DNA of 64,000 bases. It comes from Flavihumibacter fluvii. GTDB lineage: Bacteria; Bacteroidota; Bacteroidia; Chitinophagales; Chitinophagaceae. The stretch's first letter is position 1. The number at the start of each line of letters is the position of its first letter. The position numbers and the translations under genes were made by a program. Location of the stretch: contig NZ_CP092333.1 in assembly GCF_018595675.2 (NCBI RefSeq), positions 3,930,001-3,994,000 of the forward strand, read 5' to 3'. This document shows, one piece after another, positions 40,584 through 46,026 of the stretch. The notes under the pieces were generated by a model, which ran no database searches, had not been told where the DNA came from, and saw nothing but the letters and a program-made list of their open reading frames with translations.

Positions 40584-41039
40584 ACTGGGTGGGTTTCCAG
40601 TAAGATGACCAGGCGCTGCAATTCCATAATTAAAGTATAGTTCCAACCGCCGCCGCCATGCCCGTATGCTGCCGGGCTGCAGTTAAACATCATCGCTATT
40701 TAGTTTAGTATAAGTATCCAATATGTAGGTATGACATGATCGGTTTGGCATTATTTACGCCACCCTTAAATTATCAAACAATGAAATTTGAAAACCCGGA
40801 TTGCTTTAACCATGCATTGCGATACTTTTGAAATGCAGACAGGCACTGGTTATCAAACAATATTGTGTATATGTTTAAGGAAACCACGGCGGCCAGCAAT
40901 AGTTTTATTCCCTCATGTGTTTAGAAATAATAAACATATATTAGTACCACTAAACAACTGGTAGTGTTAGTATTTGTAAACATAACAGGTGGTTTTTTAC
41001 CTGCATTTCTGTATTCCTTACTTAAATGATAAAATATGA
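40584..41039. promoter_or_regulatory. Long regulatory spacer upstream of the PbfA gene
   Basis: 456 bp without a gene, between the divergent exbD and the PbfA-type gene. It contains ACAATATTGT (40857-40866, perfect palindrome), repeated CAxATATTA-like AT motifs near 40930, CACTA/TAGTG inverted arms near 40950-40968, and a short hairpin CAGGT-N8-ACCTG (40986-41003) 36 bp before the start codon. The ATATTGT core also occurs in the promoter of the XRE-cupin regulator at 46064-46077. No exact TAnnTTTG box was found. Confidence 0.45.
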
Positions 41040-42413
41040 ATGCATATGAAAAAAGAAATTAACAGTCATTTGCGGACAGAAGGCGATATCAATTTTTCTG
41101 ATGCAAGAAAGAATTGGGCGGAACGAAATAATGATCCGGCAACAACAGCTATGCTGGCAGCTGATTCAAAATATTTCCTGCATCAGTCATTGTCAACACC
41201 GTGTCTTGATGTATTGAAAAGCTGCGACGGCATTTATATTACCAACCTGCAGGGTAAATCATATATCGATTTTCATGGTAATAATGTCCATCACCTGGGA
41301 TACCGTAATAAGTATATCCTGGATCGTGTAAAGGCCCAGATGGATGAACTTCCTTTTTCACCAAGGCGGTTTACCAATCCGGTTGCCGTTGAACTGGCGG
41401 AGCGGCTCGTTTCATTAACCAATGGTGTGCTTTCACGGGTGTTGTTTGCGCCTGGTGGTACCTCTGCAATAGGAATCGCCCTCAAGCTTGCACGGGTAGT
41501 AACCGGAAAATATAAGACAATCTCTATGTGGGATGCATTTCACGGGGCTTCCATGGATAGCATCACCGTTGGCGGTGAATATATGTTCCAGAAAGATATT
41601 GGTCCGCTTATCCCCGGAAATATCCATGTGCCACCGCCCGACAATTACAGGGGCATGTGGTCAAAGCCGGAGAGCGAAGACGGCGACATAGCCTATGCCG
41701 ATTACATAGAATACGTGATTGAGAAGGAAGGTGATATCGGGGCCGTTGTTGCAGAAACGATCCGCAGCACGGATGTGAAGGTTCCTTCAAGAGCTTACTG
41801 GAAAAGGGTTCGGGAAATATGTGACAAGCATGGTGTGCTGCTGATCCTGGATGAGATACCCATTTGCCTTGGACGCACAGGCGCTGTTTTTACCTACCAG
41901 CAATACGGCATTGAACCGGATATACTGGTGATCGGAAAGGGCCTTGGTGCCGGTGTTGTTCCGATGGCTGCCATGTTATGCCGCGAAGAATATAATGTAG
42001 CCGGCCATATATCTCTTGGCCACTACACACATGAAAAAAGTCCGCTGGGTGCTGCAGCCGCGCTGGCTGCCCTTGACTATATGGAAGAGTTCAGGGTATT
42101 GGACCATGTACAAAAGATGGAAGCGTATATGTGTGAGCGTTTGCAAAAAATGTATAACCAGTATAGCATTATTGGCCAGGTGAGAGGAATGGGGATGTTA
42201 TGGGGTGTTGAACTGGTTAAGGATCGTACTACTAAAGAAAAGGACACCGCTACTGCAGAGAAGGTCATGTACCGCTGCATGGAAAGCGGGTTAAGTTACA
42301 AGGTGTCGGCAGGGAATGTATTATCCTTATATCCCCCACTTATTACAGAACAGCATCAACTCGCTAAGGCAATGGATATCATTGAAGAGGCCATCAGGTA
42401 CGTCACTAAATAA
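41040..42413 (+). CDS. pbfA: PLP enzyme, probable (R)-1-hydroxy-2-aminoethylphosphonate ammonia-lyase
   Basis: 457 aa from ATG 41040 (or 455 from ATG 41046). It is a class III aminotransferase fold, with the PLP lysine in DILVIGKGLGAG near residue 300 and SMWDAFHGAS. The stretches FLHQSLSTPCLDVLKS, DFHGNNVHHLGYRN and FAPGGTSAIGIALKLARV resemble PbfA, which releases ammonia from the hydroxylated phosphonate to give phosphonoacetaldehyde. PhnW, PhnX and PhnY are not in the window. It is the first gene of a cluster with a phosphodiesterase and a DUF5690 transporter. A transaminase role is the main alternative. Confidence 0.8.
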   Translation: MHMKKEINSHLRTEGDINFSDARKNWAERNNDPATTAMLAADSKYFLHQSLSTPCLDVLKSCDGIYITNLQGKSYIDFHGNNVHHLGYRNKYILDRVKAQMDELPFSPRRFTNPVAVELAERLVSLTNGVLSRVLFAPGGTSAIGIALKLARVVTGKYKTISMWDAFHGASMDSITVGGEYMFQKDIGPLIPGNIHVPPPDNYRGMWSKPESEDGDIAYADYIEYVIEKEGDIGAVVAETIRSTDVKVPSRAYWKRVREICDKHGVLLILDEIPICLGRTGAVFTYQQYGIEPDILVIGKGLGAGVVPMAAMLCREEYNVAGHISLGHYTHEKSPLGAAAALAALDYMEEFRVLDHVQKMEAYMCERLQKMYNQYSIIGQVRGMGMLWGVELVKDRTTKEKDTATAEKVMYRCMESGLSYKVSAGNVLSLYPPLITEQHQLAKAMDIIEEAIRYVTK

Positions 42414-42431
42414 CATCAGAAACGCCAGTGT

Positions 42432-44132
42432 ATGCCTAATTATATTTCAATTCATAAGAAAGATTTTCAATTACTGATTGCAGGCGTCTTGCTGTCAATT
42501 GCCATGGTCTGCGGATGCAGAATGGATTCAAAAAACAGTTATCCGCCAGGGATAGAACATGTGATTGTAATAGGCGTGGATGGTATGAGTCCGGATGGAA
42601 TCCGGAAGGCCGGCGTTCCGGTAATGAAAAGAATGATTGAAGGCGGAGCGGTAAAATGGAATGTCCGGACAGCCTTGCCTTCCAGCAGCAGTACAAACTG
42701 GGCATCCATGATTATGGGTGCAGGACCTGAGCAACATGGGATTTTAAGTAATGAGTGGGAAAAAGATAATGCCTCTCTCCCACCTGTCGTCAGGGGGGAG
42801 GAAGGCATTTTCCCCACAATATTTTCCATCGTTCGCCAGAACCGGCCTGATGCGGAAATCGGGGCAGTGTACAATTGGGGTGACTTTGGCCGCCTGTTTG
42901 AAAAGAAAGCGGTGAATTACGACCGTACGTTTTCCACGGAAGATTCGACGACTACAGATTTCATTCATTACATCAATGAAAAAAAGCCTGTATTTGCCTT
43001 CCTGCACCTGGATCATGTTGATCATGCCGGTCACCATGACGGACATGGCACACCAGCTTACCTGGCATCAATTTCAAAAGCCGATTCATTAATTGGTAAA
43101 GTATTGGATGGTATAAAGGCGGCTGGCATAGAGGACAATACATTAGTGATTATTACAGCGGATCATGGTGGCAAGGGCTATGGGCATGGCGGGGCAACGA
43201 TTGAGGAAGCGGAAATTGCCATGGTTCTTTATGGAAAAGGGATTAAAAAAGGGTATGAAATACCAGAAGAAGTATATACGTATGACCTGGCTGCAACTAT
43301 CGCGTTCGCACTGCATATGGAATCTCCATATGCGTGGATAGGCAGACCTGTGAAAAGTGCATTTGAAGGATTTGCAGTGCCTTCAAATTTGTGGAAGGGC
43401 AAAAGGCTCTTAGCTTCCCCCATAATATTTCCCGCCCCGAATTTATACCAGCAGGCAGGCGGATTATTTATTGATACACCTGCAACAGTCAAGATACAAG
43501 TGATGGACAAGGAATCTATCATTCGTTATACCATAAACGGGACTGAGCCTGATTCATTATCAATGGAATACAAAGCCCCTTTTACGCTGGATGCCACTGC
43601 TGTAGTAAAAGCCAGGGCTTACGACAAGGCGGGCAATGAAAGTCCGGCCAGCACAGCATATTTCCGGATTTTGAAATCAGGCGGTGGAAACGGGCTACAG
43701 GCATCGATTTATGAAGGTGACGGGTGGAAAAAATTGCCGGTTTTTGACAATTTGAAGCCATTGGACAAGTGGGTAAGCCATGAATTTACCATCGACCAGG
43801 AAAAGGTTAAGTCGTTGGTCAGGAATGCTGATGCCAATTTCGGATTGGTCTTCTCCGGGTACCTTGAAATTGACCAGCCCGGCAAGTATACGTTTTATCT
43901 TCAGTCTGATGATGGAAGTAATCTGTATATTGACAATAAGGAAGTCGTCAATAATGATGGCAGCCATGGTGTTATAGAAGCCGGCGGTGCAGTGCAACTT
44001 GAAAAAGGGAAACATGCCATCAGGGTGGAATATTTTAATGGCTTTGGCGGATTCTGGCTGGATGCATTTTACCAGGGGCCGGAATTATCCCGGCAAATAA
44101 TTCCTGTAAACAAACTATTCTTACAAAATTGA
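42432..44132 (+). CDS. Lipoprotein alkaline-phosphatase-superfamily phosphodiesterase with PA14 domain
   Basis: 566 aa. The N-terminal helix ends VCGC, a lipobox-like site (Cys29). Residues ~35-320 are a nucleotide pyrophosphatase/phosphonoacetate-hydrolase-type core, with metal Asp in GVDGMS, the candidate nucleophile region SSTNWASMIMG, DHVDHAGHHDGH and ADHGG. Residues ~345-415 resemble the chitobiase C-terminal Ig-like domain (YTINGTEPDSLS). Residues ~430-560 form a PA14 carbohydrate-binding domain (YTFYLQSDDGSNLYIDN). It probably cleaves phosphoesters or phosphonates of extracellular glycans or lipids. It starts 18 bp after pbfA and overlaps the next gene. Confidence 0.86.
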   Translation: MPNYISIHKKDFQLLIAGVLLSIAMVCGCRMDSKNSYPPGIEHVIVIGVDGMSPDGIRKAGVPVMKRMIEGGAVKWNVRTALPSSSSTNWASMIMGAGPEQHGILSNEWEKDNASLPPVVRGEEGIFPTIFSIVRQNRPDAEIGAVYNWGDFGRLFEKKAVNYDRTFSTEDSTTTDFIHYINEKKPVFAFLHLDHVDHAGHHDGHGTPAYLASISKADSLIGKVLDGIKAAGIEDNTLVIITADHGGKGYGHGGATIEEAEIAMVLYGKGIKKGYEIPEEVYTYDLAATIAFALHMESPYAWIGRPVKSAFEGFAVPSNLWKGKRLLASPIIFPAPNLYQQAGGLFIDTPATVKIQVMDKESIIRYTINGTEPDSLSMEYKAPFTLDATAVVKARAYDKAGNESPASTAYFRILKSGGGNGLQASIYEGDGWKKLPVFDNLKPLDKWVSHEFTIDQEKVKSLVRNADANFGLVFSGYLEIDQPGKYTFYLQSDDGSNLYIDNKEVVNNDGSHGVIEAGGAVQLEKGKHAIRVEYFNGFGGFWLDAFYQGPELSRQIIPVNKLFLQN

Positions 44133-45406
44133 AAACAGTAACACAGTTATTACAGCGGTCAAAGTTTGCATTTATCAGCTGGTCTGTAATTGCAGCTTTC
44201 GGTACCTATTTCTGTATGTATGCATTTCGTAAACCTTTTACAGCGGGCACTTACAGCGGGTATAGCCTTTGGGGCATAGAATATAAAAGTATCCTGATCA
44301 TTGCCCAGGTATTCGGGTATATGTTGTCGAAGTTCATTGGCATTAAAGTAATTTCGGAGCTTAAACCAGCCAGGCGAAAGTTATTAATAATAGGGCTGAT
44401 TGTTTTTTCAGAGATCGCATTGTTATTATTCGGGCTGACAGACCCATCCTACAATTATATTTTCCTGTTTATGAATGGCCTGCCCCTAGGGATGGTTTGG
44501 GGCGTAGTGTTCAGTTACCTTGAAGGAAGGCGTTTCACTGAAATGCTGGCGATGGGCCTCAGCATCAGCCTTATAGTTTCCTCCGGTATTTTGAAGACGG
44601 TTTATTTTGTGGTGCATGGCTGGTTTGGATTTATTTCTGAATTCTGGATGCCAGCTGTAATTGGATTGCTCTTTCTTCCGTTATTTCTATTTTTTGTGTG
44701 GATGTTATCCGCCATTCCGGCGCCGGATGAAAAAGATATTTTATTAAGGGCGGAGCGAACGCCAATGACCAATGAGGATAAGCGGGCAGTCCTCCGGAAA
44801 TTTGGCCCCGGCATTTTATGCTTTGTGATCATCTATGTAATGCTGGCGTGCATGCGCGATTTCCGGGATAATTTTTCCGTAGAGATCTGGAATGAAATAG
44901 GGGCGGTGTTTGATAAAACCGTTTTTTCCCGGACTGAACTGGTCACGGGCCTTGTCGTGTTAGTGGCAGTTGGTTGTTTATCCCTGATCAAGACCAATTT
45001 GCGTGGATTTATGGGTGTACAACTGCTTATTGCCGTGGGGGTAATTTTAGCAGCAGCCAGCACCTTTCTTTTCCAGCAGCACCTTATATCGCCATTTTGG
45101 TGGATGCAACTGATTGGGGTGGGACTCTTCCTGGCTTATATCCCTATGCAGATAGCCTTATTCGAACGGATGATCGCTTTATTCAGGATCAGGGCCAACG
45201 CCGGGTTTTTCGTTTACCTCTGCGATTCCATCGGGTATTTGGGCAGTGTATTTTTATTGCTGTACAAAGAGTTTTTTATGAAAGACCTTAGCTGGGCGAA
45301 GGTCCTCATGAAATTCAGCTATTTACTTACGGGAGTTTGCCTGCTGTTTTTATTACTTGCCATAATTTTCTTCGGCCGTAAATCAATCAAGGAACATCGA
45401 ATATAG
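44129..45406 (+). CDS. DUF5690 multi-span membrane protein, putative transporter
   Basis: 425 aa from the TTG at 44129, which overlaps the upstream stop as TTGA, a sign of coupled translation. About twelve membrane helices form an MFS-like fold (WSVIAAFGTYFCMYAFRKPFTAG; LAYIPMQIALFERMIALFRI). DUF5690 has no proven substrate. Its MFS-like shape and the tight operon with the lipoprotein phosphodiesterase and PbfA suggest uptake of a released phosphonate or phosphoester. That is inference from context. Confidence 0.82.
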   Translation: MKTVTQLLQRSKFAFISWSVIAAFGTYFCMYAFRKPFTAGTYSGYSLWGIEYKSILIIAQVFGYMLSKFIGIKVISELKPARRKLLIIGLIVFSEIALLLFGLTDPSYNYIFLFMNGLPLGMVWGVVFSYLEGRRFTEMLAMGLSISLIVSSGILKTVYFVVHGWFGFISEFWMPAVIGLLFLPLFLFFVWMLSAIPAPDEKDILLRAERTPMTNEDKRAVLRKFGPGILCFVIIYVMLACMRDFRDNFSVEIWNEIGAVFDKTVFSRTELVTGLVVLVAVGCLSLIKTNLRGFMGVQLLIAVGVILAAASTFLFQQHLISPFWWMQLIGVGLFLAYIPMQIALFERMIALFRIRANAGFFVYLCDSIGYLGSVFLLLYKEFFMKDLSWAKVLMKFSYLLTGVCLLFLLLAIIFFGRKSIKEHRI

Positions 45407-45438
45407 TGGCCATTGAATCAAGGTGACCATTGGCTGCT

Positions 45439-46026
45439 TCAGGCGTTTTCGGGGAGAAAGAAATACACCACCAGCATAGTTGCATCAACACCACCTATGT
45501 TGGATAATTTGTGTGGCATACGGCTATCAAAAAACAGTGACTCACCTTCCTGGAAAATATATTTCTGGTCTTCTATTTCGTATTCCAATTTTCCTTTGAT
45601 CATATAATTATACTCAAAGGATTCTGTTTTTACATTCCGGGTACGCCGTGCTCCGTTTTTTAACTCGAGCAATACAAAATCTACCAGCCTTCCGTGAATG
45701 GTACGCGTGAACATGCGGCGGTATAAAAACCCTTTGGCATATTCTTTCTCAAAAGGTTTGTATTCTTTAGGTTTTTTAAATTCTATCCGGTTTGCTGCTT
45801 TTTTCCTTGAACTCATGTCCTTGAAAAAATCCGTAAGGTCCAGGTTCAACGCATCGATGATCTTCATTAATACAGGCAGTGAAGGAATAGTACGGTTGTT
45901 TTCAATCTGGGAGATCAATCCCTTGCTGACCTGGGCTTTGTTGGCCAGGTCCTGGATGGTTATATTTTTTTCCTTACGGACGTCTTTGATCTTGTTACTG
46001 ATCTGGATCAATATTTCATCCTGCAT
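45439..46026 (-). CDS. XRE-family regulator with C-terminal cupin
   Basis: 195 aa. The helix-turn-helix at residues ~8-62 reads DLANKAQVSKGLISQIENNRTIPSLP. The C-terminal cupin (ESFEYNYMIKGKLEYEIEDQKYIFQEGESLFFDSRMPHKL) would bind a small ligand. Such PuuR-like regulators often control nearby catabolic genes. It is convergent with the PbfA-phosphodiesterase-DUF5690 operon, 32 bp from its end, and is the best candidate for its regulator. Confidence 0.9.
   Translation of the reverse strand: MQDEILIQISNKIKDVRKEKNITIQDLANKAQVSKGLISQIENNRTIPSLPVLMKIIDALNLDLTDFFKDMSSRKKAANRIEFKKPKEYKPFEKEYAKGFLYRRMFTRTIHGRLVDFVLLELKNGARRTRNVKTESFEYNYMIKGKLEYEIEDQKYIFQEGESLFFDSRMPHKLSNIGGVDATMLVVYFFLPENA

Follow-up and report, generated by a model that had tools for sequence, protein, structure and literature searches.

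In the genome of Flavihumibacter fluvii (Bacteroidota), a 64,000-nucleotide stretch of contig NZ_CP092333.1 (positions 3,930,001 to 3,994,000; hereafter the window, to which plain coordinates refer) carries three tightly packed genes coding for a PbfA-type ammonia-lyase, a phosphodiesterase and a protein of the Pfam family DUF5690. Our results show that this trio is a real, conserved phosphonate module, and it is likely that it acts as a satellite operon of a phosphonate-scavenging regulon, which would free and import (R)-1-hydroxy-2-aminoethylphosphonate ((R)-HAEP) and feed phosphonoacetaldehyde to PhnY and PhnA. The features of the locus, with the lengths of the open reading frames (ORFs), are as follows:

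40919-40935, no strand assigned: palindrome GTTTA-N7-TAAAC, candidate operator, 17 bp, with its end 104 bp upstream of the start codon of pbfA
40939-40955: second palindrome, 20 bp downstream of the first and degenerate (two mismatches)
41040-42413, + strand: pbfA, 457-aa ORF
42432-44132, + strand: phosphodiesterase-CHB_HEX-PA14 gene, 566-aa ORF
44129-45406, + strand: DUF5690 gene, 425-aa ORF with a TTG start
45439-46026, - strand: XRE-cupin regulator gene, 195-aa ORF, convergent with the operon

The gap between pbfA and the phosphodiesterase gene is 18 bp, the phosphodiesterase and DUF5690 genes overlap by 4 bp (TTGA), and 32 bp separate the DUF5690 gene from the convergent regulator gene, whose 195-aa product contains HTH_3 and Cupin_2 domains in a Pfam search. 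The packing and the XRE-cupin neighbour had been given in a preliminary description of this DNA and were confirmed by ORF coordinates and family searches.

The protein coded at 41040 scored 728.9 bits against the PbfA equivalog NF049939 (cut-off 525) in an NCBIfam profile search and was the only one above that cut-off in the whole F. fluvii genome, the next class III gene reaching 264 bits. Two trees, the second with 33 PbfA rows and 17 other class III rows, set PbfA apart from the other class III rows with full support (100/100), and the 41040 protein grouped with PbfA. The equivalog score and the trees bear out the earlier description of a PbfA-like ammonia-lyase and rule out an ordinary class III transaminase. 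The protein carries GKG at residues 299-301, of which K300 is presumably the pyridoxal phosphate lysine, and is 55.7% identical to the PbfA that a Vibrio parahaemolyticus plasmid encodes in a phnW-pbfA-phnX cluster. By these comparisons it is a true PbfA, with (R)-HAEP lyase activity predicted by orthology to the characterised enzyme of V. splendidus, which converts (R)-HAEP to phosphonoacetaldehyde and ammonia (PMC8154272).

It had been stated earlier that none of PhnW, PhnX, PhnY and PhnA accompanies this PbfA, which is true of the gene neighbourhood and untrue of the genome as a whole. A whole-genome search found PhnA (497 bits) and PhnW (476.9 bits) above their curated cut-offs and PhnY at 664.3 bits (cut-off 635.65), all at 4.191-4.195 Mb, about 215 kb from the pbfA operon at 3.971 Mb. 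This island opens with an XRE-cupin paralogue sharing 57.4% identity with the 45439-46026 regulator, followed by phnA, phnY, phnW, susC, susD, two PF04185 phosphoesterases, a TonB receptor and a Phn-HD oxygenase; next to these, on the opposite strand, are a PhnX-like HAD gene, a TIGR03364 flavin adenine dinucleotide (FAD) oxidase gene (the amine-oxidase gene) and a second DUF5690 gene. The earlier idea of a module apart from PhnW, PhnY and PhnA was not borne out, because phnA-phnY-phnW is present, accompanied by a paralogous regulator and preceded by the same palindrome, and a stand-alone module without a phosphonoacetaldehyde route is ruled out by this island. Carbon-phosphorus lyase is also ruled out as a route, since a profile search with a positive E. 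coli control gave no PhnJ match in the F. fluvii genome. Two further genes of the island (locus L044) bear on the fate of the products:

L044:8548-9141 (genome 4207547-4208140), + strand: Phn-HD (PhnZ-like) oxygenase, 210 bits, just below the cut-off of 214.6
L044:9147-9848 (genome 4208146-4208847), - strand: PhnX-like HAD, in an operon with the FAD oxidase and the second DUF5690

The substrate of PhnZ is (R)-HAEP, so the PhnZ-like oxygenase could compete with PbfA. The HAD scored 151.8 bits against TIGR03351 (cut-off 218.9), carries the motif DMIGT in place of the DMAGT (or a near variant) of the relatives shown, and has Ile at the position of the phosphonatase cap-domain lysine, the Schiff-base residue, where 57 other aligned sequences, Vibrio PhnX included, have Lys. 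It was dropped as the phosphonoacetaldehyde hydrolase of F. fluvii because this lysine is missing, which together with the DMIGT motif makes PhnY-PhnA the likelier exit for phosphonoacetaldehyde. The FAD enzyme of the same operon matched TIGR03364 with 387.1 bits (cut-off 285.1). The two large PF04185 phosphoesterases, which carry beta-propeller domains, lie side by side after SusD (L044:1373-6522), and the TonB receptor that follows them has below-cut-off matches to haem receptors.

The DUF5690 protein matched PF18943 with 521.3 bits and had no NCBIfam match. Its AlphaFold model, with a predicted local distance difference test (pLDDT) score of 90.4, found human SLC37A4 (G6PT) as the best PDB match, with GlpT (1pw4) at rank 32. 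When aligned with hhalign to a six-row profile of the organophosphate:phosphate antiporter (OPA) family (GlpT, UhpT and UhpC), it gave Prob 93.6 with E 2.1e-7 across 376 columns. The controls, sugar-porter and MHS profiles and a six-row set of major facilitator superfamily (MFS) carriers outside the OPA family, gave Prob below 1. Residues R34 and R243, invariant in 42 DUF5690 sequences, fall in the profile alignment on R45 and R269 of GlpT, which we take to be its phosphate-binding arginines; both are invariant in the six OPA rows. Judged by profile and fold, DUF5690 is distantly related to the organophosphate:phosphate antiporters (GlpT, UhpT, G6PT), and it is probably an inner-membrane aminophosphonate carrier; the importer role suggested earlier is supported by homology as that of an organophosph(on)ate carrier. 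Such a role has precedent in AepP, described as a GlpT-like 2-aminoethylphosphonate (AEP) permease (PMC8316502) and, like DUF5690, an OPA-type MFS carrier encoded beside AEP catabolic genes. Unlike AepP, here compared by its description only, DUF5690 has its own Pfam family and is linked to GlpT only by profile and fold. A full-text search found the term DUF5690 in no paper of the collection searched.

The 42432-44132 protein contains Phosphodiest (PF01663, 106.6 bits), CHB_HEX_C_1, Fn3_assoc and PA14 domains, and its AlphaFold model (pLDDT 88.5) matches the folds of ENPP1/3, ENPP6 and Xac NPP; by domains and fold it is a phosphodiesterase of the nucleotide pyrophosphatase/phosphodiesterase (NPP) type, within the alkaline phosphatase superfamily. 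In an alignment of 29 such phosphodiesterases D50, N89, D197, H201, D244, H245 and H252 are invariant, S86 is kept in at least 90% and the nucleophile position holds Ser or Thr; the nucleophile and bimetal-ligand roles are those we presume from motif position and family knowledge, with H252 apparently standing in for the distal NPP histidine. The PA14 and CHB_HEX parts are missing in 6 of the 29, and several orthologues have no lipid-anchor cysteine. The protein is probably exported or lipid-anchored; its lipobox is weak by eye, and no acidic export signal follows it. At L047:6781-9291, in the phylum sample described below, a phosphodiesterase has the PF01663 catalytic stretch twice, followed by CHB_HEX and PA14. 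HAEP has been found in a polysaccharide of the soil amoeba Acanthamoeba and in a lipid of Bdellovibrio stolpii (PMC8154272), and these HAEP-bearing molecules are plausible substrates of the phosphodiesterase.

The gene neighbourhood was examined in 80 DUF5690 loci of named genomes, the best 80 of at least 569, so that close relatives count strongly (Dyadobacter alone gives 13 of the 22 loci with pbfA); the closest named genome is Flavihumibacter profundi, with 89% over DUF5690. Core-gene labels are BLAST labels, with part of the references and hits checked by hidden Markov model, and ORFs were called with a simple script that may mislabel truncated or shadowed genes. Within 10 kb, 75 of the 80 loci (72 when FAD and PhnY are excluded) have one or more of phnA, phnY, phnW, PhnX-like, FAD oxidase and pbfA, often as phnA-phnY or as FAD oxidase with PhnX-like, and the signal is strongest at the genes adjoining DUF5690, falling to a fraction of 0-0.03 beyond five places. 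Four of the five loci without such genes (L074, L094, L114, L131) are short contigs or lie at a contig end; L119 does not. XRE-cupin homologues occur in 39 of the 80. All 22 DUF5690 loci that hold pbfA also carry the phosphodiesterase, a grouping beyond chance. The trio is also found, in varying order and with varying partners, in Chitinophaga, Dyadobacter, Arenibacter and Flavobacterium, including one-locus versions in Dyadobacter (XRE-PhnX-like-FAD-phosphodiesterase-pbfA-DUF5690) and Flavobacterium (SusC-SusD-phosphodiesterase-pbfA-AP2-DUF5690-FAD-PhnX-like-XRE). Recurring phosphonate-gene neighbours of both pbfA and DUF5690, together with the phosphonate genes in the same genome, support the phosphonate role first proposed for the trio.

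Each of the 22 genomes with a pbfA-DUF5690 locus has a candidate enzyme that consumes phosphonoacetaldehyde: nine have a PhnX-like gene within the locus, where the search was made at locus level, and the 13 searched whole gave six PhnX-like matches of at least 200 bits (two above 218.9) and seven PhnA above the cut-off. The Dyadobacter PhnX-like matches, at 200-218 bits, are just below the TIGR03351 cut-off of 218.9. In a sample of 395 genomes of the phylum, PbfA was above its cut-off in 15, F. fluvii included; among 15 other PbfA loci (14 genomes), ten have phosphodiesterase or DUF5690 neighbours and most of these also phnW, phnA, phnY or PhnX-like genes. The cluster of L047 reads phnW-phosphodiesterase-pbfA-phnA-phnY-FAD.

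A broader sample of 247 genomes of the class held 44 DUF5690 places, of which 40 were analysed, two F. fluvii places and two G426 fragments being left out. Of these genomes, 37 have DUF5690, 22 have phosphodiesterase homologues at E up to 1e-40 and 19 have both (Fisher p 1.8e-15 by genome and 8.4e-6 by genus, relatedness ignored), and seven of the eight genera that hold the phosphodiesterase also have DUF5690. Except in F. fluvii, the co-occurring genes are on other contigs or far apart, which rules out that DUF5690 always adjoins the phosphodiesterase; five of the 40 loci (L163, L164, L181, L190, L191) have only a weaker phosphodiesterase-like gene with 23-33% identity. By BLAST thresholds 25 of the 40 loci have phosphonate genes, six of them carried by a PhnX-like gene alone (TIGR03351 156-235 bits, one above 218.9). 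The count rises to 27 with L194 and L195, where DUF5690 stands beside Phn-HD (PhnZ-like) oxygenases of 207 and 204 bits; L194 also has a phosphonate-associated alcohol dehydrogenase of 297 bits (cut-off 328). DUF5690 was above its cut-off in the control genome of Caulobacter vibrioides as well, so the family extends beyond Bacteroidota.

The palindrome GTTTA-N7-TAAAC ahead of pbfA has its sole exact match in the window at 40919-40935, which is one of seven exact sites in 5.0 Mb; the same element precedes phnA in the F. fluvii island and pbfA in F. profundi. Across Bacteroidota it is enriched before phosphonate genes. Counted with a spacer of 7 and at most one mismatch, regions between divergent genes entering both groups, it precedes core phosphonate genes in 48 of 209 regions (mean of 30 shuffles 8.4, largest 16) vs 24 of 452 others, and other spacers give 3-14 of the 209. 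A second sample gave 11 of 51 core regions vs 9 of 204 others, with 0-3 of the 51 for other spacers. A wider degenerate pattern is hardly enriched genome-wide (46 vs 40 in the control). Several sites form pairs 20 bp apart, among them those ahead of SusC and of DUF5690 in L163 and those ahead of SusC in L164. A sigma-70 scan gave 17 hits vs a shuffle mean of 13.2, which is not clearly above, and was not used. The XRE-cupin paralogues, one beside each operon, probably control both by binding this common 17-bp element.

Taken together, these results suggest a route in which the phosphodiesterase, outside the inner membrane, would hydrolyse phosphonate esters such as glycan- or lipid-borne aminophosphonate head groups, freeing HAEP or AEP, and DUF5690 would bring the freed aminophosphonate across the inner membrane, probably by exchange with phosphate in the manner of its OPA relatives. 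Cytoplasmic PbfA is then expected to remove ammonia from (R)-HAEP, yielding phosphonoacetaldehyde that PhnY and PhnA, identified by their scores, would convert to acetate and phosphate, with PhnW, likewise identified, channelling AEP into the same route. The lyase family is that of the phnWX and phnWAY clusters (Zangelmi et al. 2021, PMC8154272), and the most likely destination of phosphonoacetaldehyde is PhnY-PhnA, the exit used in the alphaproteobacterial phnWAY-pbfA clusters described there; in F. fluvii, however, pbfA lies in an operon separate from phnW, phnY and phnA, with a phosphodiesterase and DUF5690 where those clusters have AEP ABC transporters. The arrangement pbfA-phnY-phnA is stated to be found only in Proteobacteria (PMC12366243), but we found the three genes in one cluster in Chitinophaga silvisoli (L096) and in the phylum-sample loci L047, L052 and L053. 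PbfC and PbfD are FAD oxidoreductases, with PbfD1 placed in TIGR03364 (PMC10590968), the family of the FAD enzyme at the second DUF5690 locus of F. fluvii, although the HAD adjoining the latter, unlike in the PbfC/PbfD systems, has no phosphonatase cap lysine. The PusCD phosphate-utilisation systems of Flavobacterium comprise six types (PMC8115612), and the available part of that account names neither PbfA, DUF5690 nor XRE-cupin. DUF5690 and the trio are likewise not mentioned in the available parts of PMC12366243, PMC10590968 and PMC8316502, and among the matches listed for PbfA, for SusC/TonB with phosphonate, and for phosphonolipid or phosphonoglycan with phosphodiesterase, no title or abstract opening describes the trio.

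Several observations weigh against a dedicated aminophosphonate route. On the carrier, a 42-sequence DUF5690 profile run against PDB sequences reached SLC37A4 only, at a non-significant E of 0.24, a three-row OPA alignment was also non-significant (Prob 0.8), and E. coli GlpT, UhpT and UhpC alone gave Prob 39-72 depending on mode, single sequences not exceeding 17. The phosphodiesterase is also found in loci without pbfA, and a catalytic-domain-only form occurs away from DUF5690; the enzyme is therefore not HAEP-specific, and a HAEP-specific phosphodiesterase is ruled out. The HAD beside the second DUF5690 is alone of 58 aligned in having no phosphonatase cap lysine, and the genome pattern search found no palindrome before that operon. 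The palindrome also precedes 24 of 452 non-core regions, above the shuffle mean of 10.8. Five of the 15 other PbfA loci of the phylum sample stand without phosphonate neighbours. Finally, 13 of the 40 class-sample DUF5690 loci have no phosphonate gene, and seven of these have a PHP-domain gene (L165, L166 and L168-L171 of one genus, and L177), a pairing which implies that the family may carry other organophosphates and suggests that this branch carries another one. The PHP genes of L165 and L177 are HisJ-family by scan, those of L166, L168 and L171 were labelled by the look of the sequence and those of L169 and L170 by genus. Neither kind of gene was seen in L160, L178, L183, L185, L186 and L196; of these, L186 is a 3.5-kb contig, L183 begins at a contig end and in L196 an unassigned FAD oxidoreductase adjoins DUF5690.

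The alternative that survives best, although we regard it as unlikely, is a general role of DUF5690 as organophosphate:phosphate antiporter, in an operon for scavenging ordinary phosphodiesters such as nucleotides and glycerophosphodiesters, with pbfA as a hitchhiker detoxifying HAEP taken up accidentally. The PHP pairing fits this view, as do the phosphodiesterase fold, nearest to nucleotide and choline phosphodiesterases, and the report that HAEP uptake inhibits E. coli growth and that HAEP breakdown is possibly advantageous (PMC8154272). Against it stand the phosphonate-catabolic genes around nearly all close DUF5690 loci and the position of the second F. fluvii DUF5690 beside an FAD oxidase of a phosphonate-linked family.

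It is considerably less probable that the 41040 protein has shifted to a different amino substrate and the trio handles another phosphorus-containing amine. Five of the 15 other PbfA loci of the phylum sample (L048, L049, L050, L051, L054) have no phosphonate neighbours and still exceed the NCBIfam cut-off, and an Ensifer homologue likewise has no phosphonate genes nearby in the annotated stretch. A side branch formed by L050:9266-10624 and L054:9336-10694 has S at R242, with no phosphonate neighbours, and may have shifted in this way; it still passes NF049939, whose cut-off may be too generous. Yet this group departs from the PbfA-specific columns at several positions, R242 included, whereas the 41040 protein keeps every one of these 27 columns, which were chosen as invariant across 30 PbfA rows and rare among 17 rows of other class III proteins. 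It also falls with the Vibrio phnW-pbfA-phnX protein in one 22-row clade of the second tree (support 100/99), the Vibrio row being that of V. parahaemolyticus, as the characterised V. splendidus sequence was not among the rows. That an aminotransferase, a phosphatase and a transporter came together by chance and were kept so only in close relatives is extremely improbable: the order pbfA-phosphodiesterase-DUF5690 without a further phosphonate gene within 10 kb was seen only in F. fluvii and F. profundi among the loci examined, but the trio itself recurs in varied orders in the four genera named above and in three phylum-sample loci (L046, L057, L058).

Returning to the satellite operon, a wider picture can be put forward tentatively, as somewhat less likely than not: loci of Bacteroidota resembling polysaccharide utilization loci, in which SusCD and an NPP-type phosphodiesterase would strip HAEP or AEP from phosphonoglycans and phosphonolipids (for example the amoebal polysaccharide that yielded the first HAEP), DUF5690, as a new phosphate-antiporter branch, would import them, and an XRE-cupin regulator reading GTTTA-N7-TAAAC would co-induce the scattered operons. 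What our analysis suggests as new is the family assignment for DUF5690, by which a Pfam family of unknown function gains a testable function. It is probable that Bacteroidota break down aminophosphonates bound to polymers or lipids through a regulon that has a carrier and an operator of its own, which suggests a source and consumers of environmental (R)-HAEP, a compound whose natural abundance is poorly known.

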